In this document: positions 1,207 through 31,284 of the stretch, one piece after another
Position numbering within the stretch: position 1 is the stretch's first letter
Layout of the letters: each line of letters starts with the position of its first letter
Virus record (IMG/VR): IMGVR_UViG_3300034418_005312
Location: 1-32,867 of that record
DNA from: a virus
Reading direction: 5' to 3' (one strand)
DNA: 32,867 nucleotides
Position numbers and translations under genes: made by a program
Notes under the pieces: generated by a model
Told to the model about the DNA's origin: nothing
Databases searched by the model: none
Seen by the model: the letters and a program-made list of their open reading frames with translations, nothing else

Positions 1207-3749
1207 GAATTATATATAAATGTAATTTCAACCAGAAGAGGTCCTCCTGGAGTAGTTGTTCCGCTAACCTTATAACACCCATATATACCTCCATATAAAC
1301 CCTTAAATGGCGTACCAACTGCTAGTACTGTATCACCAGCAAGAAAAGCCTTTCCTATGACAGGGACATCATTACAGTCTGTGAATGTATAGTAGTTTAC
1401 AGGTAGGGTTGTGGTTGTGGTAGTGGTTGTCACACCAGCACACGCCCTTACATTTAGAACCTGACCTGTGTGTGATATATGTATGGTGTACGCAGTACCA
1501 CCGTCATCTACATAGTACCACTTGAAGACCCCGTCAAACAGGTTTGCACCTAATGCGTCTGTGTAAACGAAATCGTTAACGGCAGGAATCGAACCACTGC
1601 CGTTGTGGTAGTATGTTGAAAGAGAGGGGGTAAGTGAACATGCATTAAAATCTGACGACTGGGCACTTGGATCCATACTGAATGCTGAGATAACGGGTGC
1701 TGTAGTAGTCGTTGTAGTTGTTGTGGTTGTAGTTGTTCCAGTACAAGTTGTGCAGTCTGCATATATAACGACGGGGTTTTCGATTAGATAATATGGGTAT
1801 GATCCTGTAGTTGTTCCGCTGATCTCAAAACAGTTCCCATCGTCCGTCTTTACAATATTACCTGGAACTATAGCTGAAAGTGTTGTATCTAAAAGAACAA
1901 CCTGAGTTGAAGGCGTAACACATGTCCTTGCCGTGTAATAGTTACCGACAGCTGGTACTGTTGTAGTCGTGGTACTTGTGGTTGTGGTTGTAGTACCTGG
2001 ACATGCATAAACCTCTGCCACATATCCGTTTTTATCTATCTTAATAACCTCCTGTGAGTTGTCTACAAAGTACCACTTATCTCCACCTGAAAATACACTC
2101 CTACCATCTTGATCTGAATATATCCTATCCCTTAATGTAGGTACAGGGTTAGGACCATTGAAATACATTGTCGTAAACTCAATACTGGATACTGGACTTA
2201 TACTGCATGCATCAGAAGACTGAGTCTTAAAGTTCTTAACATCCACAAGGAATGGCTTGTAATCTGAAGAGGATTTTATATCCACATTTATAGTTCTGTC
2301 TGGACTTGTTCCAAAGCAATTGGTTGCGTTGATTGTGAAAGAGAATGATAACTCCTCCACTGGATTTCCAATTATAGCTCCCTCTGAAAAACTAATACCT
2401 TCTGGGAATATATGTGAAAGACATGTTCCGTTTGAAACGACAGATCCATCACCCCTAACTATTATGGGTGTTGATAGTGCACATATATTTCTTACCAATG
2501 TAGCACCAACAGTTAAAGTGACAGCGTTAGAATTACAGTCTGTATATGTTATTAATGTAGATGTTGTACCTCCATTTACAATATATTCAACACAGTTGGA
2601 TACAACACTAAATGACTCAGGATTACCAAGTGTCTGTATTGGAATATTTACAGGATTTAAAGAATCTATGGATATATTTTCTTGATATATAAATGGCTCT
2701 GCATACTCAAAGCAGTCACATGGATTTATAGATACCACATTTCCAGATGTGTCTACACCTACAAAAGACTTTCCTGCAGATGTTGGAACAGTACATAAAG
2801 CAGTATCTATCATATGCAATGAATTATTACCATTATATATCTGAGACCCATCTGAAGTAATATATATCCTATCATTAACAGCTGGAAGAACACCTATACC
2901 ATTATGATAGTACTGTCTTGTTGGACACTGTGTACAAGCATTAGCCTTTGTGTCAGCGTCTACTGTATCAATATAAAAAGGTTTTAAGCTTGGACTAACT
3001 CTATTTAATATCCATATAGTGTTTGCTAATGGAGAGTCTACAATAACTCTTGCGTCATCAACAGATGAATACTTATCAAACAATAAACTTCCATTTCCAT
3101 TATTTACCAATCCATCAAGAGGCTTGTGTAGGCTTATATCATCCTCACTCACCCCAGCAGCTATAAGTGCATTATAGTTAGCTACAGAGTTTAGACCTAT
3201 ATATCCAGTGTCTAAGATTACAGCTCCATTCCACTCCACCTTAAACCTTGTGGGTTCATCTATAACCTGATGAGATACACCTGCAAGACCTATATCACTA
3301 CCTAAATTTAAGGCTATCGATCTTTCTTTAGATATACCGTTGTACGATACTGTGCCTGTACCTATGCTATCCTCATAGTCCCACATTAGGTATAGGTTTT
3401 CATAGTTGTTTGGGTTATTAAATACAAACTGACCTTCAAAGTCTGTACCATTAAAATATACAGGTATAGGTGTCGCTAAAGATTTTATCGTAGCACTATC
3501 CTTCTCTGTGTATTCTTGATCACTTACTAGGTAATATATAGTATTGTTTAGTCCTGGCTCGAAATCTAGGTATTCTGATGAAGGATCTCCTGCCTTTACT
3601 GTTACTGTAGATCCATCATACGGAACATATCCTATACCGCCAAGTCCAGTGACCTTATCAAATAGTGCTATACCATTAGAACTAAGTAAGACATTATCAT
3701 ATGTAAACTCCCCACTTCCTGTATACTCGTATGACTGCTTTAATTTCAT
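1176..3749 (-). CDS. Modular tail adhesin with poly-threonine linkers
   Basis: 857 aa, probably an elongated virion surface or receptor-binding protein. Residues 1-250 form a unique N-terminal part that may dock on the tail. From about 250 the protein is built from repeated modules. Module A occurs three times (about 256-347, 498-585, 684-772), with a shared pattern of Cys, YYHNG-like turn, VNDRIY-type strand, WYYVD-type strand and a closing G-x-V...C. Module B occurs twice (603-669 and 786-852), starting YYT...C and ending in a C-x2-C motif. Modules are separated by pure or nearly pure Thr tracts (586-597, 672-683, 774-781). The abundant Cys is unusual for a phage fibre. Its ATG overlaps the muzzle stop by 4 bases (ATGA), so the two are probably translationally coupled. 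Function is inferred from architecture and location; no known domain family was recognised. Confidence 0.65.
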   Translation of the reverse strand: MKLKQSYEYTGSGEFTYDNVLLSSNGIALFDKVTGLGGIGYVPYDGSTVTVKAGDPSSEYLDFEPGLNNTIYYLVSDQEYTEKDSATIKSLATPIPVYFNGTDFEGQFVFNNPNNYENLYLMWDYEDSIGTGTVSYNGISKERSIALNLGSDIGLAGVSHQVIDEPTRFKVEWNGAVILDTGYIGLNSVANYNALIAAGVSEDDISLHKPLDGLVNNGNGSLLFDKYSSVDDARVIVDSPLANTIWILNRVSPSLKPFYIDTVDADTKANACTQCPTRQYYHNGIGVLPAVNDRIYITSDGSQIYNGNNSLHMIDTALCTVPTSAGKSFVGVDTSGNVVSINPCDCFEYAEPFIYQENISIDSLNPVNIPIQTLGNPESFSVVSNCVEYIVNGGTTSTLITYTDCNSNAVTLTVGATLVRNICALSTPIIVRGDGSVVSNGTCLSHIFPEGISFSEGAIIGNPVEELSFSFTINATNCFGTSPDRTINVDIKSSSDYKPFLVDVKNFKTQSSDACSISPVSSIEFTTMYFNGPNPVPTLRDRIYSDQDGRSVFSGGDKWYFVDNSQEVIKIDKNGYVAEVYACPGTTTTTTSTTTTTVPAVGNYYTARTCVTPSTQVVLLDTTLSAIVPGNIVKTDDGNCFEISGTTTGSYPYYLIENPVVIYADCTTCTGTTTTTTTTTTTTAPVISAFSMDPSAQSSDFNACSLTPSLSTYYHNGSGSIPAVNDFVYTDALGANLFDGVFKWYYVDDGGTAYTIHISHTGQVLNVRACAGVTTTTTTTTLPVNYYTFTDCNDVPVIGKAFLAGDTVLAVGTPFKGLYGGIYGCYKVSGTTTPGGPLLVEITFIYNSCFDCQKTLP
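1407..1430 (-). repeat. Poly-threonine codon tract (8 Thr)
   Basis: Eight consecutive Thr codons (residues 774-781 of the 857-aa adhesin) form a low-complexity ACN triplet run between the third A module and second B module. It is a likely flexible linker. Confidence 0.85.
1701..1736 (-). repeat. Poly-threonine codon tract (12 Thr)
   Basis: Twelve consecutive Thr codons (residues 672-683 of the adhesin) use a mixture of ACA and ACT codons, so the triplet repeat is imperfect at DNA level but perfect in protein. It separates module B1 from module A3. Confidence 0.9.
1959..1994 (-). repeat. Poly-threonine codon tract (11 Thr, 1 Ser)
   Basis: Residues 586-597 of the adhesin read six Thr, one Ser, five Thr. 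The tract separates module A2 from module B1 and is very similar in length to the tract at 1701-1736. Confidence 0.9.
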
Positions 3750-6700
3750 TTTTTAGTCGGTTTATTTATAACAATAGGTCTCACAATTATAGGTCTACCT
3801 ACAGACTGTGTAAGTGTAAATATCTGCGTGATCGATGTGCAGTATGTAACAACAAAATTAACACTTCTTGTGGAACCTGTGGTATTGTTTGCAATATTTG
3901 CATAAATATTAGCCGAACCATTTCCAGATGTTGTAACAGGACTTACCCAATCCGTGCCATCTCCTGTGTCTACAAGAGTTATAGTCCATGGCTGCTGAGT
4001 GTCTATGTTAAACATAAAGAATGATAGCCCACCTGAATTACTTGTCACGTTCCTAGCTGAAGGTCTTATAGACAACGTGCATGGATTTATGTTTCTTGTA
4101 TTCTCAGTCGCTACAGTATACCTGTTTGAGTATGGATCATAGGCACCTAGCTTCTGTGCATTTGGACTACCTTTGAACTCATCTCTAAAATAGTCTGTCA
4201 TACCTAGGGACGATATCTCAGATACATTACCCTTCTCCATACCTACAACGGCACCCCTCCTTGCGTCTGTGAAATACATGTTTCCAGCATTCGTGGCAAA
4301 ACTCTCTGGGTTGTTACTTATACCATAGTCCACAGGGAACGGAATCTCACTACCTAAAACTTCTGGTATAGAGGCAACCGTACCTCCACCTACAGCGTCA
4401 TACAATACATTCTTTCCGAACATCACCTTGTTTATCTTGTCCTGGTGAAATACAAATATATCTCTCTCCCTTGAGTAAAGCTTTTCGATAGGTCCAAAAT
4501 CTCGATCTAGATCCTTAAAGTTTGCAAGAGATAGGTTAAACTCATTAAGTCTGTTTATAGAGGTGTCGCCCCTAAAAACACCGCTGTATGTAAGAGAGGC
4601 CTCCTTTCTTTCATTCTCGTAGTCCTCAATAATACTTGTCACTCTTGGACTGTATTTCATCTGTGGATCATTAAAGTCATCCTTTATCCTGTAAGACTCA
4701 ACACCATTACCGAATGCAAATGAGTTGTATTGAGAGTTATAGCTTGTGGTGTCATTTATCTCTATAATAGCACCATTGTTATTAGCAGACTGATCCTGCT
4801 CCCAATCCTCTTTAAATACTGTTGCTGGCTCTGATGGTGCAGATCCTGGCCATGCAAGGTCTATAATTATAGAATACTGATTTGGCACAGCTAAGACTGT
4901 ATAATACCCTTGAGGTACGCTAGATGTTCCAGATGCGTACACACTCTGACCCACACAGAAAGAATGAGGGCTGTCGGTAGATTGAGGATTATTAGGATCT
5001 AGTGGCCCTAAAACCGTGTATCCCAAACCTACTGGTACCGTAGGAAATACATCTGTAGAGTATGTAAAGTCTGCATAGTCCCATCCAACTTTATGAAGGT
5101 TGTTTGTGATGTCGTAAGAGTCTGTTACCTCGTGGTAAACCTCTAAATCTTCTTCCTTAGCGTCTGTTTCACAAACCAATGGTTTTTCGACTTGCCTTAG
5201 TGTAAATTTTGTCCCTACCCAGTTTCCAGGATTGTTTATACTATTAAAACCAAATCCTTGAATTATCATTCTTACAGGATAATTTCTTTGAGTTGTAGCT
5301 AGATCTATAAATGGTAATCCATTAGGATATCCAGTCCTATGATCTACACCTGGTTGCACTACTTCATATTTTGCCCTTCTAAATGTTATACCTTGTGACC
5401 CTATATCATTACCATTATGATCGTGCTGTATAAAATTTTTATAAGCCCCAGACTCCACAAACCATTCCTCTATATTTTCATACCTCTCTGGAGATATAAA
5501 TGATTGCTCCTCTGTATATGCATTCTGATTATTTGAATCTCTCCATAACTTTATAGTTATTTGAGCACCTGGCTGTATTATTCTATCTATCTCATCTCCA
5601 TTACTATTAGTCTCTTGCTCTCCTCCATTTACTACGGCCATTCCACTATATAATGCACCATTTAAATTTCCATCTATTTCACTTAACTGACTTGAATATG
5701 GAAAATCTGTATCATACTGAGGTGGCGTATGAAAAACAGATTCTGCAGGGTATGTGTTTTGAGTAAAGTAACCAAATGTATCTGGAAAGTTACCGTCAAA
5801 AGCTCTAACCATTACCTTCCATTTGTCTCCAACCCTTACATCTGGAGATATATATTCACCTGTTGAGGAATTAAATGAAATTGGAAACTGTATAGTAAAT
5901 AACTGTACAGCTTGAGAACTTCCTGAAGAATTAAGCCATTCTAATGTATTTACAGTATATGTATCACCAGCGTTTAATAACACATTATCATTCCAATATG
6001 ATAGATCTAATGAATCTGTAATTCTAAAACGAACATCACCAGTATTAAACTCATCCTTATCAATAATCTCTACGGTATACCTTTTATCATGTCTTAATAA
6101 TCCCTGTCCAGGGACGTTCCCAATTTGAGAAGCCACCATAGCATTTGCACTTCCCTCTCCATAGAATATAACCTTATCTAAACCTATGAAGAGTTTATCC
6201 CATATAGGTGGTAAAGTTGAGAAGTTTTCTCCTTCCCATCCTTCATTTGAAAGTAATTCATAATTAAATTCAGATGTACTATCAACCTTAATCTTAAAAT
6301 ATAATCCTGATACCTCTTCATTGTTTAAAAATCCAGTAGACTTAAATTCAAACTCAAGTATTTTATATTTTTTATTTGAAAATGTAGGACCTGTACCGTC
6401 AGCCTTAAATATAACATAGTCTCCTACCGCAAACTTATCTCTGTCTGATTCATTTATTCTAAAATATCTATATGAACCATCTGCATAAAACCATATGGGA
6501 AATATATTGTAGTACTCCTTCTTAGCCTGCTTTATGACCAGTCTGTAGTTTGTAGCCCATTGAGGAGGATTATTCTTTATGTTAACCTTTAAACTGTTCC
6601 CTTTTGCAGATTCAGAGCTAGGGATATATATAGAGTTTTGGTCACTTATTAGAGCCGTGGTCATCCTACCGTAGTCATCTCCATATATGATACCAACCTC

Positions 6701-7876
6701 ATAATCTCTGTCCGTTCTGAATGTCTGTATCGGGGTATTCTCTGTTGTGGATGTTGATACATAGTCCACGCTAAAGTCCATGTCTATATTATTACCGTCA
6801 GTGTCAATGATATCTCTAAACTGAGTATAGTTTCCATATACAAGCCTGTTCCCTATAAGTTCCTGTGACTTAGCAAGAAGAGGTACATTGTCAAACAGTC
6901 TGGTAACCTGATCAGACGTTAGGGGTGCATATATCTTGTTATTGTCAAACACATAGTCAGACACGCTGTTGGACTCTATAAGGTTGTTATTGTCACCGTC
7001 CTTGTCTACAGACTTGATTATCTTTACATTTAGACTTCTGGTGTCAAATGCAAGAAGTTGAATTTCCTTGACAAACTCATTACCAGTCTCAAAGACTATC
7101 CTACACTGATTGTACTCATTGATCATGGCCTTGTTTATCCCAGCCAAGAAATCTATACTGTAGTCTGAAGGTTTGAATGCTACGGCTGAAAATGGAGACA
7201 TCGAGCTGTACTCGTTATCTACATACTTGTACCTATATGCAAAGTACAGGAATCTCTCCTCCATGTTGTTGGAAAGGACCTCATCACTCTTCACTGGATA
7301 TATCACTGGAGCCTTTAATGGCGGTCTCAGTATCACGTCAATATCTATATCTATACGACTGTCGTCAACCGAGTAACTCTTGGCTCTCTTTATGTTTATT
7401 TTTCTAGGTGGGTTGTAGTTGTCTGTCCAAAGTAAAAGTGCACCATTGTCCTTGTGACTAGGTAGGTAGTTTACCCCTGTTATAAGGTGCTCCTTACTTA
7501 GGTTCAGCTTACTTGGCGTGCTTGCTGTGGCCTTTGTACATATAAGTACCTCTTCCAAGGTGTTCGTTATCTCGCTGTACTCAAATATTGCGTCATACTC
7601 ATCTGCAGCTACAAACCAATATATAAGGTTCAGTGGCTCGTATGCAACCGCACCTATAGCTCTTGCGTTTGTCGATCCTATTGAGTATGTGTTTAGGATT
7701 GTCGTTATATTCCCAACCACAGTATTACCAAGTGAGTTTGTTATAGACCCTATGTTTGATCCCTCAGACGTGTCTATCGTGATGTTTAAGGCATCCTCGT
7801 ACTGACCTCCAGACAGAAGTCTCTCGTCAAGGTCCTTGTTCATCTTACCTGCAAGGAAAGTCTTCTTTAATTCCAT
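3746..7876 (-). CDS. Tail stabilisation / muzzle-type protein with C-terminal BACON-like domain
   Basis: 1376 aa. The N-terminus carries the pattern FLAGKMNKDLDERLL followed by YEDALN and SEGSNIGSI (residues 7-45), which I recognise as the start of the large tail stabilisation or muzzle proteins of crAss-like and related marine podoviruses; about 1300-1400 aa is usual for them. In those phages the protein forms the distal part of the short tail. The C-terminal ~110 residues differ. From about 1275 to 1358 there is W1297, W1310, a Ser/Gly/Asn-rich middle, a STRSVNFVV strand near 1335-1343 and a final TLTQS (1354-1358). This pattern fits a BACON-type immunoglobulin-like domain, associated with carbohydrate or mucin binding in Bacteroidota. 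A basic tail, KPTKK, follows. The stop overlaps the next ATG by 4 bases and the gene starts 2 bases after the ring-protein stop. Residues encoded by about 5.3-6.4 kb are more AT-rich than the rest. Confidence 0.75.
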   Translation of the reverse strand: MELKKTFLAGKMNKDLDERLLSGGQYEDALNITIDTSEGSNIGSITNSLGNTVVGNITTILNTYSIGSTNARAIGAVAYEPLNLIYWFVAADEYDAIFEYSEITNTLEEVLICTKATASTPSKLNLSKEHLITGVNYLPSHKDNGALLLWTDNYNPPRKINIKRAKSYSVDDSRIDIDIDVILRPPLKAPVIYPVKSDEVLSNNMEERFLYFAYRYKYVDNEYSSMSPFSAVAFKPSDYSIDFLAGINKAMINEYNQCRIVFETGNEFVKEIQLLAFDTRSLNVKIIKSVDKDGDNNNLIESNSVSDYVFDNNKIYAPLTSDQVTRLFDNVPLLAKSQELIGNRLVYGNYTQFRDIIDTDGNNIDMDFSVDYVSTSTTENTPIQTFRTDRDYEVGIIYGDDYGRMTTALISDQNSIYIPSSESAKGNSLKVNIKNNPPQWATNYRLVIKQAKKEYYNIFPIWFYADGSYRYFRINESDRDKFAVGDYVIFKADGTGPTFSNKKYKILEFEFKSTGFLNNEEVSGLYFKIKVDSTSEFNYELLSNEGWEGENFSTLPPIWDKLFIGLDKVIFYGEGSANAMVASQIGNVPGQGLLRHDKRYTVEIIDKDEFNTGDVRFRITDSLDLSYWNDNVLLNAGDTYTVNTLEWLNSSGSSQAVQLFTIQFPISFNSSTGEYISPDVRVGDKWKVMVRAFDGNFPDTFGYFTQNTYPAESVFHTPPQYDTDFPYSSQLSEIDGNLNGALYSGMAVVNGGEQETNSNGDEIDRIIQPGAQITIKLWRDSNNQNAYTEEQSFISPERYENIEEWFVESGAYKNFIQHDHNGNDIGSQGITFRRAKYEVVQPGVDHRTGYPNGLPFIDLATTQRNYPVRMIIQGFGFNSINNPGNWVGTKFTLRQVEKPLVCETDAKEEDLEVYHEVTDSYDITNNLHKVGWDYADFTYSTDVFPTVPVGLGYTVLGPLDPNNPQSTDSPHSFCVGQSVYASGTSSVPQGYYTVLAVPNQYSIIIDLAWPGSAPSEPATVFKEDWEQDQSANNNGAIIEINDTTSYNSQYNSFAFGNGVESYRIKDDFNDPQMKYSPRVTSIIEDYENERKEASLTYSGVFRGDTSINRLNEFNLSLANFKDLDRDFGPIEKLYSRERDIFVFHQDKINKVMFGKNVLYDAVGGGTVASIPEVLGSEIPFPVDYGISNNPESFATNAGNMYFTDARRGAVVGMEKGNVSEISSLGMTDYFRDEFKGSPNAQKLGAYDPYSNRYTVATENTRNINPCTLSIRPSARNVTSNSGGLSFFMFNIDTQQPWTITLVDTGDGTDWVSPVTTSGNGSANIYANIANNTTGSTRSVNFVVTYCTSITQIFTLTQSVGRPIIVRPIVINKPTKK

Positions 7877-13300: not shown

Positions 13301-15730
13301 CTATTTAGGACCAAACGACTCTAAGTCAAAACCATCTAGAGTGTCTTCAGTGCTTTCAAAATTTTGTGTAGGTAGGTTGTTCTTTCTTTGAGTTATAAGT
13401 GCGGACTGCCTACTGGCCTGCTTGTCTATACGGTCATCCTTAGCCTTCTCCTTCTTACTCTCTCTATCCATAAGGCCCTCTACCTCTATACCCTTAAGCT
13501 GCATATTGTACTGGAACTCTAAATCCATCAGCTCTCTCTTGGCCTCAACCTCAGCCCTCATCCTCTCTATCTCATACATAGACTCGGCCTGCTTAACCTG
13601 TGCCTTAGCCTGAGCCTCAAGCTGTATAATCTGAGCCTTCTGCTCTGCCGCAGACTGCTGTGTCTGTAAATTAGACTGAAGCTGCATCTGAACCTCTTGC
13701 TGCTTCTGCTTCTGCTGCTGCTCCATACGTCTTCTACGCTTAACCTTAAGCATCTCGTTTGCGAGCTTGATATTGTTTATGTTTCTTATATCTATAGCGT
13801 CCTCAAGGTCTATAGTCTGCTGCTGCAGTGCTATGGATATATTTGCCTCAAGTGCTTGCTGCTGCTCCTCGTCTGGAGACAATTCTATAAATATACCAAA
13901 GTCATGAAGGTAAAGATCCCTTACATCATCAAGTATGGCTATATTATACTTACCTATCTGCATTGCAAACTCCTCCCTGAAGTCTGCATACTCAAGTATG
14001 TCTGCAACCCTTAGAGATACACTCTCAGCCATCCTCTTTGTAACATTGAGACCTGAGTTTAATATATGTCTAGTCGCAGTGTTTGAATTTAATGCCGCAA
14101 GCTTCTGAACTCCTACCAGTGCGTCTGGGTTTGGTGTAGATGCATCCCTAGCCTCATTGATACCCGTCACGTCCCTAATCATGTTTAGGTAGTGATTGTA
14201 GTTTGCTATGAGTGCAGACATCTTAGACTGTCCACTGTTTGAGTTTAGCTCCTGTATTGGAACCCTTGCATTATTAAAGTCTCCATCCTGCGTGTAACTC
14301 CTACCGACAACACTACCTGTCTGGAAGTATAACTTCAAAGCATCCTCAGGATTATATGCAGCACCATTTCCAAGGTCTACCTCATTCAATCCATCGGCAT
14401 CTATAAATACACCGTCAGGCACAACCCTAGACATAACCTGCTGTAGCTTTAAGTGAGTCAGTTGTATCTGATCCGCAAATGGAACCATACGTCTAACCAA
14501 TGACTCAATATTACCCTTGTACATCCTAGGTGCATGTGCAACATAGTTTGGCATAGCCTTCTGAGATGCTGACTTAGGTCTGACCATGTTACGCATCATC
14601 TCCCACTTCAGCAGTATGTTAGATCCACCTACAAGTATACCGTCATACCACACCTCTCTAGGTGCCTCTATAACCTCAAAAGGTACGCCCTCTCCCATCG
14701 GTGGGAAGAACGTATCTCCTTTACGTATTACTCTCTCCCCTCCATTCTCCAACAACTTCTTCTTCCAAACAAATCTCTTTGTGGTCTTGTAGTTGAAGTA
14801 TAGAAGTGTAACAACCTCATTCAAAAATGTATCGTCCTGATAGTTTCTAACTATAGGGAAGTATTCATACCATGCAGAGCTAGCGTTCTTTATCTCTGTA
14901 AGCTGCTCATCTGTAAGGTCTGGATTTATCTTCAATAGTTCTGTATAGTGAACCTGCTTTACCTCTCCGAAGTAGTAGCAGTCAGAGAAGTCCTCCTTTT
15001 CTGTGTAGCTGTGTATCCAGTTTGCTGGATCTACATACTCTATATTTACACCGTCATTCACAAGGAACTCGTGCTTCATAACACCGACACCTATGGTCGT
15101 GACATCGTAATCAAAAAGTTTCTTAATCTCTGGGTAGTCTGACATCTTGAATATTGTGTCTATCGCTACCTCTTCAGCTATCTCTATGCTTGGCTTATAC
15201 TTAAGCTGCATGTATAGCGAAAGTTCTTCATCATCCTCAGGAAGCTGATCTGGGTCCATGTTACTCACATCGATACCAAACTCCTGCTTTGTCAGGCTTA
15301 TAAACTCTCTGGACACCATCTCCTTCTCGATCATGTCCTGGAATGCATTCTTCTTCTCTGCAGACATAACATCTTGAGCCTCAGCCTTAACCTTGTAAAG
15401 CCTGTCATTCATACCGTTAACCACGATATCGACAAACTTAGGTATGATTGGTATAGGACTCCAGTCAAGGTTCAACATAGACATATCGCCATTTATAGAC
15501 AGCTCATCCTTGTACTTCTGTACGGGTTGTTCTCCCCTAGCATAAAGCCTTAGTCTATGATACTCACCCCATTGGTCGTAAAAACGACAAGAGTTTCCTT
15601 TTCTTCTAAACCATTCTCCTTCTATAGATTTTGCTACCTTTAGTCCATACTTCTCGGAAGACTTTTCTTCGTCCGAAGCCATCTGGTTTGGGAAGGGTGA
15701 TTGATAAATTGCTACTGAAGATTTCTCCAT
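13301..15730 (-). CDS. Portal protein (crAss-like)
   Basis: 809 aa, the dodecameric ring through which DNA enters the head. The N-terminal half has portal-like elements: DQWGEYHRLRLYARGEQPV (52-70), LNLDWSPIPIIPKFVDIVVN (87-106) and, later, a region of aromatic strands (YFGEVKQVHYTELL). A central part with LNMIRDVTGINEARD and LAALNSNTATRHIL resembles the helical stem/clip of large portals. The C-terminal ~150 residues form a Gln/Glu/Lys-rich coiled coil (RRRRMEQQQKQKQQEV onward) that fits the barrel extension of large portals; this tail is usual in crAss-like portals. The start overlaps the terminase stop by one base (TAATG). Residues 1-30 look flexible. Identification by pattern, length and synteny is strong. 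Confidence 0.82.
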   Translation of the reverse strand: MEKSSVAIYQSPFPNQMASDEEKSSEKYGLKVAKSIEGEWFRRKGNSCRFYDQWGEYHRLRLYARGEQPVQKYKDELSINGDMSMLNLDWSPIPIIPKFVDIVVNGMNDRLYKVKAEAQDVMSAEKKNAFQDMIEKEMVSREFISLTKQEFGIDVSNMDPDQLPEDDEELSLYMQLKYKPSIEIAEEVAIDTIFKMSDYPEIKKLFDYDVTTIGVGVMKHEFLVNDGVNIEYVDPANWIHSYTEKEDFSDCYYFGEVKQVHYTELLKINPDLTDEQLTEIKNASSAWYEYFPIVRNYQDDTFLNEVVTLLYFNYKTTKRFVWKKKLLENGGERVIRKGDTFFPPMGEGVPFEVIEAPREVWYDGILVGGSNILLKWEMMRNMVRPKSASQKAMPNYVAHAPRMYKGNIESLVRRMVPFADQIQLTHLKLQQVMSRVVPDGVFIDADGLNEVDLGNGAAYNPEDALKLYFQTGSVVGRSYTQDGDFNNARVPIQELNSNSGQSKMSALIANYNHYLNMIRDVTGINEARDASTPNPDALVGVQKLAALNSNTATRHILNSGLNVTKRMAESVSLRVADILEYADFREEFAMQIGKYNIAILDDVRDLYLHDFGIFIELSPDEEQQQALEANISIALQQQTIDLEDAIDIRNINNIKLANEMLKVKRRRRMEQQQKQKQQEVQMQLQSNLQTQQSAAEQKAQIIQLEAQAKAQVKQAESMYEIERMRAEVEAKRELMDLEFQYNMQLKGIEVEGLMDRESKKEKAKDDRIDKQASRQSALITQRKNNLPTQNFESTEDTLDGFDLESFGPK

Positions 15731-17949
15731 TATTTTATTATTTCGCTTCTATTTCCACGATTGTCATATCTTACAAATTTAATACTTATTTTTGATTCTT
15801 TTTTCTGATTGTCAAAAACATACTTTTTGTTAGCCATAATCGCAAGCCCTGAACTTATAGAGGCATCGTATTTTGTCCTGTTATTTATCTCAAACTTAGC
15901 CCAGTCTTCAAGTGTCCTCGTAAAGTACATACTACCTATCTCTCCTGGCTGCCTGTATACACCCTCAGAATCAAAGCCTACATACTCCTCTATATAGGAC
16001 TCAATAGCTGACGCATGAGCCTGTTTAACATCCTCACTGGAGTTAGGTATACCGCCTATCTCTAACTCTGTCTTAGACAGTCTCTTTTTATGCTTATCAG
16101 GCCTGTTCATAGAAAATCCTCTGTATCCCCTGTTCTTGAAATGGTACAATAGCCTAGCCTTGTTATTCTCAGCAAGCATAGGCATACCATAAAATACACA
16201 AGCCATAAGAACATCCTCAAAGAATATCTCTGCAGTCTGAGGCCTAGCTACATACTCCAAGAAAAACTCATTAGACGGAGCATCCTCCATATGAAACTTA
16301 GTCAGGCCATGAAGAGCACCGTTTGAACCTCCACCTCCAACAACCCCAGATATATCATACGGGTCACATCCAAAAGATCCCATGTGTTCATTCCCAGGAT
16401 ACTTTACACCTCCCCTCTCTATAACATTATTCCTGTGCTTTGAGTCTGGTATCCAGGAAACAATAAACCTGCCCTTCTTGTCTGGTGTCCATATAACCTC
16501 GGTATCTTTCTCCCCACCTCTCCAGTGGAAGTAACCCCTAGTTATAACCCTGTCTCTTATTAGCGAGTCATTATAATCAATCTGCTGGTATATCTTAGTG
16601 AGGTTAAATATAGACTGCCTTGACTCATCCCTAAATGCGTGAGACTCTGTCCTAGGGAACTGTCTATAGTACTCGTTCAATGCATCTGGATCAGACTTCA
16701 GTGAGGCCACCTCATTATTCCAGTATGTTATCACACCGTTATGTATGGGCTCACCATCAACTCCTGTAACCTCAGACTCTGGATCCTCAAAAACTGGCCA
16801 ACCAAACTCATCTATATATCCCTCATAGTTCCATTCCATAGGTATGAATAGCGAATATAGACCACTCTTCGTCTGTCCATTGGCAGACCTAACATTTGGG
16901 TCGCTATCCATGTATAGCTTCTTAAAGTTACCACCACCCTTTGATAGTGCGTTTGATGTAGATCCCATCATGCACTTACCTATAATCTTACTACCCAGTC
17001 TTAGACATGTCTTTGTAACCCTCCAGTTGTTTAAAATATTTTCAGGCTTCTCCCACTTACCACTCTCGTCATGCACAAGAAGAAGAAGCTTCTCACCGTC
17101 ATAGCTGTTGTCAGATGTATTCTTCCAGTCTATGGTGGTGTCTAGTCCATCTATATCGTCATCCTTCTCCTCATCCATATTTCTCCTGGTAATCTTACTG
17201 GCAGGAACCCTAAACGCAAGTTCAGTCTTAGGATTGTCCATACCGTCCTGAATAGGCTTGAAGAAGAACGGGTAGTTCCTAACGATAGGAACCACCTTGT
17301 CCGTAAACATCTTCTTGGCATCTGACCCTGTCTTTGACAGTATTCCAATCCTTGAGTCCCTAACTATTGTTCCTGTGTTTGTAGCCTCAGAAGAGGACAT
17401 AAAAGAAAAACCAGAACGCCTGTTCTTTAGGTAGCACATACCAAAGCATCTACTGTCTGCCTTGCATGCCTCCCAGTATATAAAGAATATCCTATTAGAT
17501 TCCCTAAAGTCTGGCTGCCCCACATCTATCTTTGTCCATTGCAGGTACATATAGTGTGTCCCTGTCATATATGTATGCCTGCCATTATTATTGAACCAGT
17601 GCCCGTAATCCCTCTTATCGAACTCTCCCTCTATGTAGTCCACATACTTTGACTTGAACTTATTATCCTTCCTGTTCCAATCAAATATTGTCCTAACCTT
17701 TGAAAGCTCTCTAGGGTATTCATGAGGAACCCATCTATCGTTCTCTGTATCTATATCTTTTGGTGCCTTTGGTATGGCTATCTTTAGACCATTTATGTCA
17801 TATATGTCGCCTATAGTGCCGTCCTTTGATATTACAATAAGATCGTAATCCTTGTCATAACCGTAGACCCATTTCTTTGCCCTGTTCCTTGCATTTAATG
17901 CGTTCTTACTTATATGATCATTCGATATTTTATATAGATTATTTTCCAT
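15730..17949 (-). CDS. terL: Terminase large subunit
   Basis: 739 aa from ATG 17949 (MENNLYKIS). An in-frame ATG 13 codons earlier (17988) would overlap the previous gene by 50 bases, so the later start, with an 11-base overlap, is preferred. It is the ATP-driven DNA-packaging motor and headful or cos nuclease. The ATPase domain shows a Walker A-like KNRRSGFSFMS (175-185) and a Walker B LLLLVHDE (288-295) with the catalytic Glu, then a coupling-type segment TSNALSKGGGNF. The RNase H-like nuclease domain shows Asp529 in FGCDPYDI, acidic residues near 578 in FFEDVLMA, and Asp695 in TKYDASISSGLA. The size is in the crAss-like range and larger than typical 450-600 aa terminases. It is followed with a one-base overlap by portal. 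Confidence 0.88.
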   Translation of the reverse strand: MENNLYKISNDHISKNALNARNRAKKWVYGYDKDYDLIVISKDGTIGDIYDINGLKIAIPKAPKDIDTENDRWVPHEYPRELSKVRTIFDWNRKDNKFKSKYVDYIEGEFDKRDYGHWFNNNGRHTYMTGTHYMYLQWTKIDVGQPDFRESNRIFFIYWEACKADSRCFGMCYLKNRRSGFSFMSSSEATNTGTIVRDSRIGILSKTGSDAKKMFTDKVVPIVRNYPFFFKPIQDGMDNPKTELAFRVPASKITRRNMDEEKDDDIDGLDTTIDWKNTSDNSYDGEKLLLLVHDESGKWEKPENILNNWRVTKTCLRLGSKIIGKCMMGSTSNALSKGGGNFKKLYMDSDPNVRSANGQTKSGLYSLFIPMEWNYEGYIDEFGWPVFEDPESEVTGVDGEPIHNGVITYWNNEVASLKSDPDALNEYYRQFPRTESHAFRDESRQSIFNLTKIYQQIDYNDSLIRDRVITRGYFHWRGGEKDTEVIWTPDKKGRFIVSWIPDSKHRNNVIERGGVKYPGNEHMGSFGCDPYDISGVVGGGGSNGALHGLTKFHMEDAPSNEFFLEYVARPQTAEIFFEDVLMACVFYGMPMLAENNKARLLYHFKNRGYRGFSMNRPDKHKKRLSKTELEIGGIPNSSEDVKQAHASAIESYIEEYVGFDSEGVYRQPGEIGSMYFTRTLEDWAKFEINNRTKYDASISSGLAIMANKKYVFDNQKKESKISIKFVRYDNRGNRSEIIK
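15774..15781 (-). promoter_or_regulatory. Possible -7 promoter box upstream of portal
   Basis: The minus strand reads TAAATTTG inside the 3' end of the terminase gene, 43 bases before the portal ATG. It matches TAnnTTTG but is in coding sequence and may be chance. Confidence 0.25.
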
Positions 17950-18208
17950 TTCTAGCCCTACCTTCAGCGAAACCCTGCTTGCCAGCATCTATCTCTTTAA
18001 CTTCCTCTTTGGCATTCTCTTCGTCCTCTATCTTGTGAAGCATAGCCAAGGCATCGTCGAATGCTAGCTTCTTAGCAGATGCAGCGTTCTTCATCTTATC
18101 AGCCGTTATATCGTCCTCGGCATGAGTTATTATTGGCTCCTTTAGAACCTTTATAAGCTCATCAATCGCCAACTTAGCGGCCTCTAATATTTCTACCTTT
18201 TTAGACAT
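17939..18208 (-). CDS. Small helical protein before terminase, function unknown
   Basis: 89 aa, helical and charged: KKVEILEAAKLAIDELIKVL (3-22), then DKMKNAASAKKLAFDDALAM (37-56), ending in a Gly/Arg tail (GKQGFAEGRARNGK). It overlaps the terminase start by 11 bases and the 185-aa gene by 16 bases. The position directly before terL would suit a small terminase subunit, but I see no clear helix-turn-helix and the protein is short for that role, so I leave function open. The helices could form a coiled-coil oligomer. Confidence 0.6.
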   Translation of the reverse strand: MSKKVEILEAAKLAIDELIKVLKEPIITHAEDDITADKMKNAASAKKLAFDDALAMLHKIEDEENAKEEVKEIDAGKQGFAEGRARNGK

Positions 18209-18750
18209 ATATTTCTGTTGTACATTCTATACAGTATCTCATCACCTATCCTGAACTCATACTCACTATCAGGAGTGAACGATATAATGTCTCCACAAGA
18301 TACGTAATCTATATCATCATTCTTAAACACCAATTCACCCCAAAGCTGCTCAAGTGAACCTACCTGTGTGAACATATGATCCTCAGACTCTATAGGTCTA
18401 ACGAAACAGAACGGAGAAGGTGCGTTCCACTTACCGCCCCTCATATAAAGATACACCTGATCAGGCTCAACTATAAATACATTGTCCATCACATAGTGCC
18501 AGCTACTCTTCTGCTTACCTTTAATATCGTAATAATACCTAAACACGTTGTGATGAACGATAACTATGTCTCCCTCTCTAACAGGTCCAGAATAATATGT
18601 AGGTATCGATACAACCTTTGCAAGTCTGTTTGAGACCGTGTGATCCTCCTGTGACGAACTTATTATAAATGCGTTGCCATCGTATACACGTATATTGTCA
18701 TACCTACGTCCAGATACAGGTTCAACTATGAAGCAATATGGAGACTTCAT
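18193..18750 (-). CDS. Phage protein with GroES-like fold signature
   Basis: 185 aa, beta-rich. The C-terminal half reads GELVFKNDD...YVSCGDIISFTPDSEYEF...GDEILYRMYNRNICL (138-183). This aligns by eye with the GroES core: the G-x-V strand, the x-GD-x-V-x-F strand, a polar stretch with E/K-V, a GEE-type turn and a terminal DILAV-like strand. The N-terminal half has a similar beat (AKVVSIP 44-50, VREGDIVIVHHNVFRYYYD 57-75). The protein may therefore be two cpn10-like beta-barrels in tandem, with conserved aromatic and His residues (HHN, WHYVMDN, CFVRPI). I recall similar proteins near the terminase of Bacteroidota phages, without assigned role. A true GroES gene is at 25758-26015. The GroES-like reading is inference; a capsid or tail barrel protein is the alternative. 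Confidence 0.5.
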   Translation of the reverse strand: MKSPYCFIVEPVSGRRYDNIRVYDGNAFIISSSQEDHTVSNRLAKVVSIPTYYSGPVREGDIVIVHHNVFRYYYDIKGKQKSSWHYVMDNVFIVEPDQVYLYMRGGKWNAPSPFCFVRPIESEDHMFTQVGSLEQLWGELVFKNDDIDYVSCGDIISFTPDSEYEFRIGDEILYRMYNRNICLKR

Positions 18751-19468: not shown

Positions 19469-19476
19469 CAAATATA
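19469..19476 (-). promoter_or_regulatory. Probable -7 promoter box for the 83-aa gene and packaging operon
   Basis: The minus strand reads TATATTTG in an AT-rich 29-base gap between the 41-aa gene stop and the ATG at 19453. The spacing to the ATG (15 bases) is like that at the scaffold, GroEL and 232-aa genes. Confidence 0.5.
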
Positions 19477-19482
19477 ATAAAT

Positions 19483-19608
19483 TTATTTTCCTTGGCCATT
19501 GTAAGGCTTCTTATAGTTCACAGAACTCTTCAACCTAGAGTTGTTCTTGCTGTGTATACCTGACCTCTTTTTCTTAGGCTTCCTAAGTGTGTTTGTATTA
19601 TTCGCCAT
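19483..19608 (-). CDS. Small very basic protein (41 aa)
   Basis: 41 codons from ATG 19608: MANNTNTLRKPKKKRSGIHS, then SRLKSSVNYKKPYNGQGK. It has 12 Lys/Arg, no acidic residue and a GIHSK motif followed by YKKPYNGQG, a pattern I know from tiny proteins near the lysis/packaging genes of marine Bacteroidota phages. It overlaps the amidase stop by 11 bases. It is probably nucleic-acid binding or virion-associated, but nothing shows which. Confidence 0.55.
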   Translation of the reverse strand: MANNTNTLRKPKKKRSGIHSKNNSRLKSSVNYKKPYNGQGK

Positions 19609-21558: not shown

Positions 21559-23718
21559 TTAAGGTGTATCTTCTACTATATCTGCTTCTTCCATATTGAA
21601 ACTTACTGTGTTATTCTCACTATTTGGAGCATCTCCTACTCTATCAAATATATCCATACTGTCTGATATACCTCCACCATAGTATTGTGGTGAATCACCT
21701 ACTAGAGTTTCTAACAACATAGTATTAGAGCTAGTACCATTATTACCTCCGCTTCCTTGATCAGGAATTGTAAATTGATTTAAACTACCATCATAGGTTG
21801 CTTCTTCTCCCATTCTCCACCAACTAACTGGAGAAAATCCTGATAAATCTTTTGGTTTACCTCCGTTATATATAGCTGTTACTGCACCTGCAGAAAGTTC
21901 AGAGTCCCATACTGCAACTTCGTCAATATTGCCATTAAAGAAATTACTTGCTCTATATTCTCCAATTATTAAGTAATTTGTACCGCTACCTTGTATAACA
22001 ACAGTTCTATCAACGCTATTGTCTAAAATTCCGTCTATATATATTTTTAAATTGTTAGTTGCTAATGATGTGTCGTATGTGACTACTATATGATGATAAT
22101 TATTATCTAAAATAGATGTATTTGCAGTAAGTCTTGTTCCGTTATTCATTCTAACTTCACCACTACTTGTTAAACTAAATGCTTCTTGTGTCGGTGTGCT
22201 TCCTACTCTAATCGCTAAAATTCCTTTACCACTTGTAGATGTTTTAACCCAACAACTAACAGATAGTGTATTGCTAAATTGTAAACTTGCACTATTACCA
22301 CAATTTACATAATCATCAAGACCATCAAAGTTAAAGCTGTACTTTGAGAAGTTATTTAATGCTGAGTTAGGTACTAGCCAGTTGTCTGTAAACTTAGCCT
22401 CTTCACCTAGCTTCCAATATCCTAAAGGAGAGTAGCTAGATATATCTGTAGGAATACCTGAGTTATATATAGCCTGCACAGCTGATTGCCCAAGATCAAA
22501 ACCAAATACTGCAGCTTCGTCTATCTTTCCATTTGCATAAGTCGAGGTAACGTCTTGATATTTACCTATAGTAAGAGGTGCATTAGTATTAAGCATTGCA
22601 GCATATACACCCACATTAGAAGTAGTGTCATCTACACGATTACCGTTTAAGTATATCTTTAAACCTGTGGAACTTCCGCTTCCATCATAAGTTGCTGCTA
22701 AATGTATCCACTGTCCTTCATAGCTTGTTAAAGTAGCAGAAGTATAACGCGAGATTCTATTAGATGTACTATTGGTATATAATACAAAATATAATTGATC
22801 AGCTGCTGAAGTATAAAATGCATATTCAGCATTACTACTACTATTTATTTTACTTAAAACTCTAAATCTTGTAGCATCGTTCATATATACCCAAGCAGAA
22901 ATACTAAATCTAGAGTCTGCTTTACCACTAGTAAAACTAAACTCATCAGGATCACCGCAGTCTACATAGCCTAATCCATCAAAAGCAAGAGAGTATTTAC
23001 TTACTTTATCTTTGTTAGTATTTTCTGGCATTAAGATTTGTGGGTATGCAAATGTAGAGCTCTCACCTGCTCTATACCAAGATGTAGGGTTTAAACTAGT
23101 TAAATCTGCAGGCTTACCATTGTTATATATAGTTGCTACATCATTACGTAAATCAACACCACTCCATATTGCAAATTCGTCTATCAAACCATAAAATGGA
23201 TTATATTGACCACTTTGTTTTTCTCCAATATATAATGAACCTGTTGCGCTTGAAAATGTACCGCTGACTGATGTGGCAGATGTTGAATCCACTCCATTTA
23301 TAAAAACTCTACCTCTTTGTGTACCTACACCTTGTGTTGTGTCAATACAATACATAACGTGAGTCCAAACATTTAAATTTATAGGTGTAGATGTTGCTCT
23401 TATGTATTTAGAGCCTGAATCCATTGAAAACTGCAATGTATTTGCTGTTGTTAATTCAATTTGAAATTGATGATTAGATGTAGTAGCGTTTCTAATTACT
23501 GATGCGATTATTTTATAATTTGGTATGCTTATTGGTTTTATCCAACACGAAAAAGTAGCCTTTATTTGACCGTCTAATTCTGAATAAACTTCTTGTGTAC
23601 TTACATAGTCATCAACACCATCAAAAGATAGTGACTTTGTTGAGAAATCTGCAGCAGGTCCACCTCCATTTATGATGAAACCCTTTATAGCGTTAGATAT
23701 AGAATTTTGTATCGGCAT
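21559..23718 (-). CDS. Tail fibre with three LamG/concanavalin-like domains
   Basis: 719 aa, probable receptor-binding fibre. After a short N-terminus (1-26) there are three tandem LamG-type jelly rolls: about 27-218, 241-438 and 459-638. Each shows the same landmarks: a FDGVDDYV/FDGLDDYV-like opening, SCWIK/SAWVY/SCWVK, a VTYD-type strand, FINGVD/YLNGNR/YIDGIL, YIGE/TIGK/IIGE and a final GLIDEFAIW, GKIDEAAVF or GNIDEVAVW followed by an IYNNGKP-type turn and a Trp-rich strand. The family binds glycans. The C-terminal 80 residues are Gly/Ser/Asn-rich and acidic, with no intramolecular chaperone recognised. Its DNA is clearly more AT-rich than flanking genes, pointing to an exchanged module. 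Its domains resemble the single-LamG genes at 31291-32034 and 32046-32795. Confidence 0.8.
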   Translation of the reverse strand: MPIQNSISNAIKGFIINGGGPAADFSTKSLSFDGVDDYVSTQEVYSELDGQIKATFSCWIKPISIPNYKIIASVIRNATTSNHQFQIELTTANTLQFSMDSGSKYIRATSTPINLNVWTHVMYCIDTTQGVGTQRGRVFINGVDSTSATSVSGTFSSATGSLYIGEKQSGQYNPFYGLIDEFAIWSGVDLRNDVATIYNNGKPADLTSLNPTSWYRAGESSTFAYPQILMPENTNKDKVSKYSLAFDGLGYVDCGDPDEFSFTSGKADSRFSISAWVYMNDATRFRVLSKINSSSNAEYAFYTSAADQLYFVLYTNSTSNRISRYTSATLTSYEGQWIHLAATYDGSGSSTGLKIYLNGNRVDDTTSNVGVYAAMLNTNAPLTIGKYQDVTSTYANGKIDEAAVFGFDLGQSAVQAIYNSGIPTDISSYSPLGYWKLGEEAKFTDNWLVPNSALNNFSKYSFNFDGLDDYVNCGNSASLQFSNTLSVSCWVKTSTSGKGILAIRVGSTPTQEAFSLTSSGEVRMNNGTRLTANTSILDNNYHHIVVTYDTSLATNNLKIYIDGILDNSVDRTVVIQGSGTNYLIIGEYRASNFFNGNIDEVAVWDSELSAGAVTAIYNGGKPKDLSGFSPVSWWRMGEEATYDGSLNQFTIPDQGSGGNNGTSSNTMLLETLVGDSPQYYGGGISDSMDIFDRVGDAPNSENNTVSFNMEEADIVEDTP

Positions 23719-24901: not shown

Positions 24902-25249
24902 TTATTTTCTTTTTACTGACTTAACCCGTCGACCCATACCTACCCTAGACTTCTCAGCCTTCTTTCTAGCGAGTTCAGACTTGGACATCTCTCCCTTCGT
25001 CTTAGGGGTCTTTGATGACACCCTTCTTGTAGGCCTGCAGTACTCGTTCTTCTTACCTGCACCGCATGCCTTTCCTGTACGTGTGTCTTCCCATTTCTCC
25101 TCCTCCCATCTCTTAAGACTGGCACCCTTGGATGACTTCTTAACCTTGCCCTTCTTCTTCCTACACTTAGCTATAGCCTGGGATGCTCTCGCAGATGGAA
25201 AGACTTTGTAACTAGCTTTAACCTTCTTGTAGCATGCGTCTTTAGGCAT
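24902..25249 (-). CDS. Small basic DUF5872-like protein
   Basis: 115 aa, very basic. The first part is MPKDACYKKVKASYKVFPSA (1-20) followed by ASQAIAKCRKKKG, a pattern common in marine phages. The second part, SLKRWEEEKWEDTRTGKACG (44-63) with NEYCRPTRRVSSKTP, resembles DUF5872, found in phages and giant viruses; the assignment is by eye. Cys at 6, 29, 62 and 71 could bind metal. It is the first gene of the leftward cluster and is transcribed away from the plus-strand regulator, with a TAnnTTTG box 23 bases before its ATG. Confidence 0.6.
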   Translation of the reverse strand: MPKDACYKKVKASYKVFPSARASQAIAKCRKKKGKVKKSSKGASLKRWEEEKWEDTRTGKACGAGKKNEYCRPTRRVSSKTPKTKGEMSKSELARKKAEKSRVGMGRRVKSVKRK

Positions 25250-25285: not shown

Positions 25286-25792
25286 ATGATTCCAAAGATA
25301 AAGAGAAAGAGATTCACAAGGAAGGACAAGATACTGTTCTACAGGGAAGAGAAGTATGACTTCATGAAGCACTGGAGCGTTATACGAAAGTGGGCAGTCA
25401 TAAACTACGACCTCAAGTCATCGTCGGATCTAGACATGCTTTTCTTCCTATACTCAGAGAGATTGTTTAGTAGAAAGAACTTCGACAGGTACGCAAACCA
25501 CATGTCATGGGACAGGTATCGATTCGATAGGTTGCTTAGGGATGGCTTTATAAGAAAGTTTAGAGAGAGACGATGGGGAGAGTCACTACTGTATGAGGTC
25601 TCTCAGAAGGGCAAGAAGATGATAGCAAACATATACAGAAAGCTATTAGGTTTTGAACCACTGCCAGAGTCGTCAAGAAGGAACAAGATATTTAAACCTA
25701 ACGCACCCTTCACTCATAAGACACTGTCTATAGCGGTGAAGGATGTAAACAAGGATCTTAAAGAACGCAAGCGACGTCCTTCTCTTGAATGA
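25286..25792 (+). CDS. Winged-helix-like DNA-binding protein, probable regulator
   Basis: 168 aa from ATG 25286; a TTG eight codons upstream (25262) is possible but overlaps the promoter box. This is the only plus-strand gene in the window. It is very basic. A helical core (29-56, HWSVIRKWAVINYD, DLDMLFFLYSE) is followed by a helix-turn-helix-like stretch (61-87, FSRKNFDRYA...WDRYRFDRLLRDG) and a beta-wing region (89-105, IRKFRERRWGESLLYEVS), then a helix and a basic disordered tail. This order fits a MarR-like winged helix and a family I know from marine phages. It diverges from the small basic gene cluster across a palindrome, so it may control that operon and itself. Its 3' end overlaps the convergent GroES gene by 35 bases. 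Confidence 0.65.
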   Translation: MIPKIKRKRFTRKDKILFYREEKYDFMKHWSVIRKWAVINYDLKSSSDLDMLFFLYSERLFSRKNFDRYANHMSWDRYRFDRLLRDGFIRKFRERRWGESLLYEVSQKGKKMIANIYRKLLGFEPLPESSRRNKIFKPNAPFTHKTLSIAVKDVNKDLKERKRRPSLE

Positions 25793-26015
25793 TGGTAAAC
25801 CTATCGTCACCGATCATCACGTCATGGGCAGACACCCTGTCGAATATCACGCTGTCTCCAGCCGCTATTCCAAGAACATTGAAGCCAACGTCCTTGACAT
25901 TGCCCTTGTGGTAACGCATCTCATTGGTGTCTTCGTCGCTCATTATAAGACCGCTACTGCTGGTCTTCTTCTCGTAAACCCTCTCTAGTATTATAAACTT
26001 ATTTAGAACTTCCAT
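25758..26015 (-). CDS. groS: Phage co-chaperonin GroES (cpn10)
   Basis: 85 aa, slightly shorter than the usual ~95. It forms the heptameric lid of the GroEL chamber. Visible cpn10 features are the first strand FIILERVYE (7-15), a mobile-loop region KKTSSSGLIMSD (16-27) with the hydrophobic GLIM that docks on GroEL, GNVKDVG (38-44), GDSVIFDRVSAHDVMIGDDRFTI (53-75) and a terminal EKDVACVL. The start overlaps the GroEL stop region by 17 bases. The 3' end overlaps the convergent regulator by 35 bases. A dome-region Tyr as in E. coli GroES is not obvious. Confidence 0.85.
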   Translation of the reverse strand: MEVLNKFIILERVYEKKTSSSGLIMSDEDTNEMRYHKGNVKDVGFNVLGIAAGDSVIFDRVSAHDVMIGDDRFTIIQEKDVACVL

Positions 26016-27558
26016 TGTCTCTTATATTTGTTACTATTGAACTTGTGCTCATGATCGTCGTGGCGACAGACACTGCATTGCTGAGTGCATTCCTCGTCAC
26101 ATTGGCAGGGTCTATGATACCCATCTTGAGCATGTTCCCCATCACCTCGTTCTTGACATCGTAACCTACACCATCACCATCTATATCTGACATCACAGAC
26201 ATACTGTTCTTGCCAGCATTCTCAAGTATCTGATTGAATGGTGACACAAGTGCAGCCCTCATGATCTTGCTTGCGGTGTCAGTGCCCTGTACCAGGGATA
26301 GGCAGTTTAGTAGTGCTATACCACCCCCAGGAAGTATACCTCCCTCTATGGCTGCCTTTACGGCACACACTGCGTCGTCTATCCTGTCCCTCTTCTCCTT
26401 CTGCTCTATGTCTGTAAGTGCACCGACATGTATCACACCAACACCTCCAGATAGGTTTGCTATCCTCTCGTTCAAGAAGTCTCTGTCCTCCTTCTTCTCG
26501 GTCGTCCATATGACCTTCTTTAATATATCTACATGGTCCTGTATCGTCTGCTCCATGTTCTCAGAGTGCATCACCACGGCCATATCTCTGCTGACAACTA
26601 TCTTTGCAGCCCTACCGAGGTCTCCCATCTGTATCACAGACAGGTCGTCACCAGTGTCGTCAGAGAAGTATGTACCTCCGAGAGCGACAGCCAGGTCCTC
26701 CAATAACTCCTTCTGCCTGTATCCAAATGATGGTGGTAGTATATTACACACCTTTATCTTTCCCTGCAATGCATTGACATTCAATGTGTTAAGTACGTTT
26801 TGACTCAGCTCACCGATGATCAGCAGGGACTTGCCCTGTGCCACGATAGGCTTCAGGATGTTCTCTATGTTTGCAAGGTTGCTTATCTCGTGGTCCGTGA
26901 TCAATACATACGGGTTGTCCATGACGCACTCCTGCTTCTTCTGGTCTGTAACAAAGTACTTTGAGGTGTAACCACGCTCGATACGCATTCCTTTTATGAT
27001 GTCGACATATGTATCTGAGTTCATGCTGTTCTCAACCGTCACCATCTCTACCTCCTCAAATGCACCAGCGATCAACTCGCCAGTCTTCCTGTCATTGTTG
27101 GCAGATATGGTTGCCACATCCTTCAGCCTGCGTCCGCTGACCTTCTTGCTCTTCTTCTTTAGGTGTGCATCTATACGCTGGGTGATCTCGTTGATCTCCC
27201 TGATCACCTCCGTGACATTTGTATCTCCGTCGATGTACTGCTCTGCGGCATCGATGATGGCCTCTGCAAGTACTATGGATGTAGTGGTTCCGTCTCCTGC
27301 CATCGTTGCGGTCTTCTCAGCGGCCTGACGCATCATTACGACTGCCAGATTTTCAGTTGGGTCGTAAAGGTTTATAGACTTGGCTACCGTCACACCGTCC
27401 TTTGTGACCGTGATCCCACCGACATGGTTCTCTGACTCTATGAGGACAGTACGTCCTCTGGCTCCGAGTGTGCTCTTTACAGCACCAGCAATTTTTTTGA
27501 TTCCAGCTCTTAGTTTCTCTTGGCCGCTGTCGCCAAGGTGTACCTCTTTTACTATCAT
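25999..27558 (-). CDS. groL: Phage chaperonin GroEL
   Basis: 519 aa against 548 in E. coli. An ATP-driven folding chamber. Equatorial ATP-site motifs are present: TKDGVTVAK (52-60, with Asp54), GDGTTTSIVLA (88-98, Asp89 equivalent to E. coli Asp87), ISANND (151-156) and IEGGILPGGGIAL (404-416). The hydrolytic Asp is Asp395 in RIDDAV (equivalent to Asp398). The apical domain (about 190-365) is diverged. The C-terminal Gly-Gly-Met tail that fills the bacterial cavity is absent; the protein ends IVTNIRDNGSSK. The gene is first in a groEL-groES pair, the reverse of the bacterial order, and has its own TAnnTTTG box after a terminator. It probably folds large capsid or tail proteins, as proposed for other phage chaperonins. 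Confidence 0.93.
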   Translation of the reverse strand: MIVKEVHLGDSGQEKLRAGIKKIAGAVKSTLGARGRTVLIESENHVGGITVTKDGVTVAKSINLYDPTENLAVVMMRQAAEKTATMAGDGTTTSIVLAEAIIDAAEQYIDGDTNVTEVIREINEITQRIDAHLKKKSKKVSGRRLKDVATISANNDRKTGELIAGAFEEVEMVTVENSMNSDTYVDIIKGMRIERGYTSKYFVTDQKKQECVMDNPYVLITDHEISNLANIENILKPIVAQGKSLLIIGELSQNVLNTLNVNALQGKIKVCNILPPSFGYRQKELLEDLAVALGGTYFSDDTGDDLSVIQMGDLGRAAKIVVSRDMAVVMHSENMEQTIQDHVDILKKVIWTTEKKEDRDFLNERIANLSGGVGVIHVGALTDIEQKEKRDRIDDAVCAVKAAIEGGILPGGGIALLNCLSLVQGTDTASKIMRAALVSPFNQILENAGKNSMSVMSDIDGDGVGYDVKNEVMGNMLKMGIIDPANVTRNALSNAVSVATTIMSTSSIVTNIRDNGSSK

Positions 27559-27573
27559 TTAATTAAATTTGTT

Positions 27574-27581
27574 CAAATATA
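27574..27581 (-). promoter_or_regulatory. Probable -7 promoter box for groEL-groES
   Basis: The minus strand reads TATATTTG, 15 bases before the groEL ATG (27558), directly downstream of the terminator hairpin at 27589-27605 and sharing its T-rich flank. No -33 TTTG at the usual distance; that place is in the hairpin. Confidence 0.5.
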
Positions 27582-27605
27582 CAAAAAACCCACCATATAG
27601 GTGGG
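27581..27605 (-). terminator. Intrinsic terminator after the 370-aa gene
   Basis: A 6-bp perfect stem, CCCACC (27589-27594) with GGTGGG (27600-27605), has a 5-base loop and is followed on the minus strand by TTTTTTGT (27588-27581). It separates the basic-protein operon from groEL. Confidence 0.8.
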
Positions 27606-29793: not shown

Positions 29794-29801
29794 CAAATAT
29801 A
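29794..29801 (-). promoter_or_regulatory. Probable -7 promoter box for the basic-protein operon
   Basis: The minus strand reads TATATTTG in the 31-base gap between the tailspike stop and ATG 29774. It is preceded by AATTCA, similar to the AATTAG of three other sites. Confidence 0.45.
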
Positions 29802-31276: not shown

Positions 31277-31284
31277 CAAAGATA
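31277..31284 (-). promoter_or_regulatory. Possible -7 promoter box for tailspike gene
   Basis: The minus strand reads TATCTTTG, ending 4 bases before ATG 31272. As at 263-270, the transcript would be nearly leaderless, so this may be chance or part of the translation start context. Confidence 0.3.

Follow-up and report, generated by a model that had tools for sequence, protein, structure and literature searches.

A phage groEL-groES pair in reversed order, with a variable ring-ring surface in GroEL and a second co-chaperonin-like gene beside the terminase

The window (the whole stretch of DNA analysed here, a virus record of 32,867 bases) carries two chaperonin genes on its minus strand: groEL (25999..27558), encoding a group I chaperonin of 519 aa, and downstream of it groES (25758..26015), encoding a co-chaperonin of 85 aa. 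GroEL is recognised by Pfam PF00118 (1.2e-55) and PHROG 5725 (5.4e-125), the Cpn60_TCP1 match being full-length (positions 1-488 of 490); GroES is recognised by Pfam PF00166 (4.8e-10). The end of groEL and the start of groES share bases 25999..26015, so the 17-base overlap read in the first-pass annotation is correct. Upstream of groEL on the same strand lies TATATTTG (27574..27581), a Bacteroidota sigma-A -7 box (TAnnTTTG, consensus from PMC9723704) 15 bases from the groEL ATG; the box comes directly after an intrinsic-terminator-like hairpin (27589..27605, minus strand; CCCACC-TATAT-GGTGGG and six T), which sets the pair apart from the gene preceding it. Beside the terminase gene lies another gene, also on the minus strand (18193..18750), for a co-chaperonin-like protein of 185 aa, which had escaped the first-pass annotation.

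The terminase large subunit (15730..17988, minus strand; PHROG 6681 1.3e-172) identifies the contig as phage and shows its kin, and the portal and several virion proteins also match phage families. One virion protein of 1376 aa (3746..7876, minus strand) has a crAss-type muzzle match at its N-terminus (PF25731 2.4e-11, 43 bits against a cut-off of 27; PHROG 14478 2.8e-207); a sub-threshold BACON match was seen at its C-terminus. Terminase, portal and muzzle-type genes are shared with crAss-like tailed phages related to Elemovirus and Pervagoviridae, a kinship by genes and not a formal taxonomy. Considering that related contigs measure 57-65 kb, the window is probably a fragment of a tailed-phage genome. 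Among GenBank phages the closest is Podoviridae sp. ctfjg026 (MW202828), with 48% identity in GroEL, 39% in GroES and 70% in terminase; Flavobacterium elemoviruses (45% in terminase) and Cellulophaga phages come next for terminase and GroEL. A Bacteroidota host is likely, since the nearest solved sequence to the window GroEL is an ancestral FCB chaperonin (9rwr, 4.7e-116; an inferred ancestor) and the named relatives infect Flavobacteriia.

Other genes of the window, all on the minus strand, include a lysis pair (19598-20272 and 20330-20833), namely an Amidase_3 endolysin, which may have a zinc ribbon at its N-terminus, and a protein of the holin family; a DUF5872 protein (24902-25249, 4.6e-13); and three ConA-like/laminin G proteins (21559-23718, 31291-32034 and 32046-32795), one with three copies of the domain, which may serve adhesion or decoration.

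We found 27 further IMG/VR loci whose GroEL is 63-99% identical to that of the window. In all 28 records of this clade groES lies downstream of groEL, and the 17-base overlap is kept in each; in one of them (L009) an upstream start codon had lengthened the ORF call, but the homologous groES start is the same. The pair was also present in six of six related contigs above 57 kb in one test. This recurrence, together with purifying selection (dN/dS of 0.03-0.11 for groEL pairs, up to 0.13 for groES), indicates that the pair is not a chance association. Bacterial operons were said to place groES first, and the sampled loci bear this out: groES is upstream of groEL in 78 of 80 and downstream in none, the other two having no groES call (one with little upstream sequence).

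The reversed order and phage GroEL have both been published, and the pair itself is known biology. Gene order is tied to GroEL phylogeny according to Marine et al. 2017, in the citing passage of PMC9611531; GroEL occurs in 36 of 78 environmental genomes of the phi38:1 group (PMC5332604), cpn10 is a core protein of Pervagoviridae (PMC8776804), and Maribacter phage Panino has both GroEL and GroES (PMC11590407). The earlier statement that complete phage chaperonin systems are known thus holds; its addition that they are not common needs softening in view of this survey and of 256 GenBank phage records with a GroEL relative.

The ATPase site of the window GroEL is intact, as had been proposed from its motifs and from D395, which aligns with D398 of E. 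coli. GDGTTT, D52, D87 and D398, which bind or hydrolyse ATP, are present in all 23 distinct clade proteins, and T30, G32, K51, D52, D87-T91, D398, G415 and D495 are invariant among them; the clade-wide departures from bacteria are P33 to A and A480 to V, two changes that may weigh against activity. A Gly-Met-rich C-terminal tail is usual in group I chaperonins and does not define them. It is present in 72 of 81 bacterial proteins and, as the first-pass annotation observed for the window (whose GroEL ends in IRDNGSSK), in no clade member.

GroEL trees were built by FastTree and by IQ-TREE with a mixture model. IQ-TREE groups the clade, ctfjg026 and Elemovirus, all with groEL first, outside all sampled bacteria (support 98/85), and FastTree is concordant. 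The ancestry of the lineage is phage-only within this sample. Deeper in the tree, in the direction of Calle and cr108_1, the branches are long and weakly supported, and the program flagged elemoF and ctfjg026 as a point where long branches meet, so any deep origin read from it would be tentative. Among the sampled bacteria the genes do not sit inside a recent host lineage. An example of how a captured operon appears in the tree is given by Bacteroides phage DAC19, which has the bacterial gene order and is nested in Bacteroidales. For the window, recent host capture is rejected on trees and synteny, and we give practically no credence to the pair being a recently captured host operon or an assembly artefact due to bacterial contamination: such an origin can draw on nothing beyond general GroEL homology and is opposed by the presence, alongside the pair, of genes for terminase, portal and virion proteins, the tree position, the best bacterial identity of about 41% and the repetition of the arrangement in many independent contigs. 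No bacterial genome was found in which a highly identical GroEL stands in the bacterial gene arrangement.

The apical domain had been described as diverged; it is not selectively so, its identity to the bacterial consensus being 40.5% against 41.0% for the equatorial domain. What does distinguish it is the groove that binds peptide and GroES, where two polar changes, L234 to E and V263 to N, are fixed in all 23 distinct clade proteins, with F204, L237 and N265 fully retained and L259 mostly. In E. coli, GroEL mutants at positions 234 and 263 lose substrate and GroES binding, and the pairing of the phage GroEL with GroES is therefore probably altered. The two changes remove hydrophobic contacts and could mean a weak affinity for substrates and GroES. 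They also lend backing to the earlier proposal that the substrate range and the co-chaperonin pairing of this GroEL may be phage-specific.

The GroES of the pair has a roof segment of 9 residues, where E. coli has 18 and the majority of the bacteria in our Bacteroidota-rich sample have 13, and a mobile loop 2 residues longer than that of E. coli. Its AlphaFold2 model (pLDDT 78; loop residues 18-23 of low confidence) is matched by Foldseek to Cpn10 structures including gp31. Judged from its sequence it is roofless in the manner of T4 gp31, the roof hairpin missing; an equally short roof in 4 of 79 bacterial GroES means that the trait is not exclusive to phages. T4 gp31 likewise has no roof and a longer mobile loop (PMC6318259), but its partner is the host GroEL.

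Working lists of ring-ring and intra-ring sites were based on the GroEL structure, and eight ring-ring sites were scored. In the clade their mean entropy is 2.13 bits against 0.58 for the equatorial domain, a value reached in none of 20,000 resamples; in 22 Bacteroidota GroELs the same sites have 0.57 bits against 0.67, with R452 and E461 conserved in all 22 and K105 in 21. The signal held in two alignments, and the intra-ring control sites are highly conserved in the clade (0.11 bits). Stretches at about 104-110, 434-448, 452 and 462-472 form the most variable part of the clade equatorial domain; E461, mostly Asp in the clade, is the exception among the variable sites. In the window GroEL the positions that are mutated in single-ring SR1, four in number, read N452, N461, M463 and S464. 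Testing the retention of ring-ring residues by Fisher's method proved underpowered (0 of 3 retained, p=0.07-0.09), which is why per-site entropy was preferred.

These data point to a loss of constraint on ring-ring contacts in the clade and, taken with the invariant ATP site, suggest a single-ring GroEL working with its own roofless GroES. The main competing reading is a canonical double-ring GroEL/GroES in which the gene order is merely swapped and the variable surface reflects another stacking geometry. The GroEL of phage EL is a double ring when apo, stacked through 1:1 ring contacts unlike those of GroEL (PMC7185714), so the loss of GroEL-type contacts alone does not exclude stacking; any stacked interface should nevertheless be constrained, and here the ring-ring stretches are the most variable equatorial part. 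We hold the double ring to be rather unlikely, if well worth keeping in mind.

GroEL relatives also occur in phages EL, OBP and AR9, and those of OBP and AR9 are single-ring; all three chaperonins act without a co-chaperonin (PMC9598537). The AR9 chaperonin is about 21% identical to the window GroEL, and the presence of a cognate groES argues against assigning the latter to the co-chaperonin-free OBP/AR9 type.

Expression probably relies on the -7 box TAnnTTTG of flavobacterial sigma-A (PMC9723704): all 16 representatives have it in front of groEL, at a distance of 23-31 bases, where dinucleotide shuffles predict 0.97. Such boxes also stand shortly upstream of other minus-strand genes of the window (e.g., 31277-31284, 29794-29801, 19469-19476, 13276-13283 and 9504-9511), which suggests that host RNA polymerase may be used generally. 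No CIRCE heat-shock element was found, and a scan for E. coli-type sigma-70 promoters around the pair gave no excess over shuffles.

We consider it probable that the pair forms a functional group I chaperonin operon which has long been part of a lineage of podovirus-like phages that infect Bacteroidota; its activity, cognate pairing, clients and single-ring working are what we infer. Transcription would probably start from the phage's own host-type promoter before groEL. Translation of GroES would begin at its start codon inside the last bases of groEL and is probably coupled to that of GroEL, so that the two proteins are made in matching amounts. GroEL heptamers would hydrolyse ATP and be capped by the open-topped phage GroES, and the clients may be phage proteins, for instance those of the head or large subunits of the virion.

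The terminase-adjacent 185-aa protein is assigned by PHROG 13932 ('co-chaperonin GroES', 3e-16) and has at least 349 relatives in IMG/VR. Its C half is Cpn10: HHalign gives 94-97% against GroES profiles (94% against bacterial GroES), with 0.2% for a shuffled control. The N half, at 9-11%, is just above controls and may be a second, divergent Cpn10. The AlphaFold2 model (pLDDT 66) aligns best with the 194-residue chain 7ekq_R of the Chlamydomonas ClpP complex (Z 9.4, 152 residues), which we take to be a tandem Cpn10 chain; when PDB sequences were searched with the profile of the 185-aa protein, chance matches alone came up. The protein is possibly, on this model, a tandem Cpn10. In size and predicted fold it resembles chloroplast Cpn20 (PMC5780408), but sequence profiles identify only the C half of the phage protein as Cpn10.

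Along its whole length the protein is homologous (96.7%) to a 'cpn10' of 200 aa in the Cellulophaga phages phi18:3, phi19:3, phi13:2 and phi46:3 (Pachyviridae), which have two Cpn10 genes each and no detectable GroEL; as these genomes are closely related, they represent a single event. Gundel has neither Cpn10 nor GroEL. The simplest reading suggested by these comparisons is that the 185-aa protein would be an older co-chaperonin for host GroEL, similar to T4 gp31.

The Cellulophaga phages with Cpn10 and without GroEL also speak for an alternative in which the main role of the phage GroES is to redirect host GroEL, as gp31 does, and the phage GroEL is a co-chaperonin-independent holdase, as would fit EL, OBP and AR9 (PMC9598537). 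We regard it as improbable, because the overlap joining the genes in all 28 records argues for joint function and the groove residues F204, L237 and N265 (fully) and L259 (mostly) are kept.

Returning to the operon as a working chaperonin, it is tempting to combine a single-ring GroEL that needs its own roofless GroES with a tandem, Cpn20-like Cpn10 passed down from ancestors that lacked a GroEL and relied on that of the host; we propose this combination tentatively, as a possibility that falls short of an even chance. If true, these viruses would have a folding system in three parts, of a kind not described in the papers that we consulted. The single-ring reading and the second Cpn10, as predicted here, are the new and testable parts. 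In this lineage nature itself tests which surfaces a GroEL requires, since the ring-ring surface drifts freely while the ATP site is fixed and a dedicated lid is kept. Single-ring action, if confirmed, would make this a naturally small GroEL-GroES machine whose lid, open at the top, would suit large clients, and the relatives that have Cpn10 genes but lack GroEL hint at a route from a borrowed host GroEL to a phage-owned one.

Among known systems, Elemovirus (Flavobacterium phages elemoA-F) is similar in the groEL-groES order, the absence of the Gly-Met tail, the 9-residue GroES roof, the promoter box and a second Cpn10 gene beside the terminase. It differs in that its overlap is 1 nt, its GroEL is 38% identical and keeps the apical L234, and its chaperonin pair is on the strand opposite to the neighbours. 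Podoviridae sp. ctfjg026, the closest named genome, shares the gene order and L234 to E but keeps P33 and has Ala at V263. Cellulophaga phages phi38:1, phi40:1 and Calle (Pervagoviridae) also have GroEL, a separate GroES and a terminase-adjacent Cpn10, with groES, unlike in the window, upstream and one gene between; no TAnnTTTG box was found within 80 bases of their groEL. The related phage GroEL gp054 of phi38:1 was detected as protein during infection (PMC13288928). In the gut crAss phage cr108_1 the ORF adjacent to GroEL, considered as a candidate, is not GroES; a weak Cpn10-like ORF, annotated as hypothetical, lies at about 5.4-5.9 kb, some 1.4 kb after GroEL.
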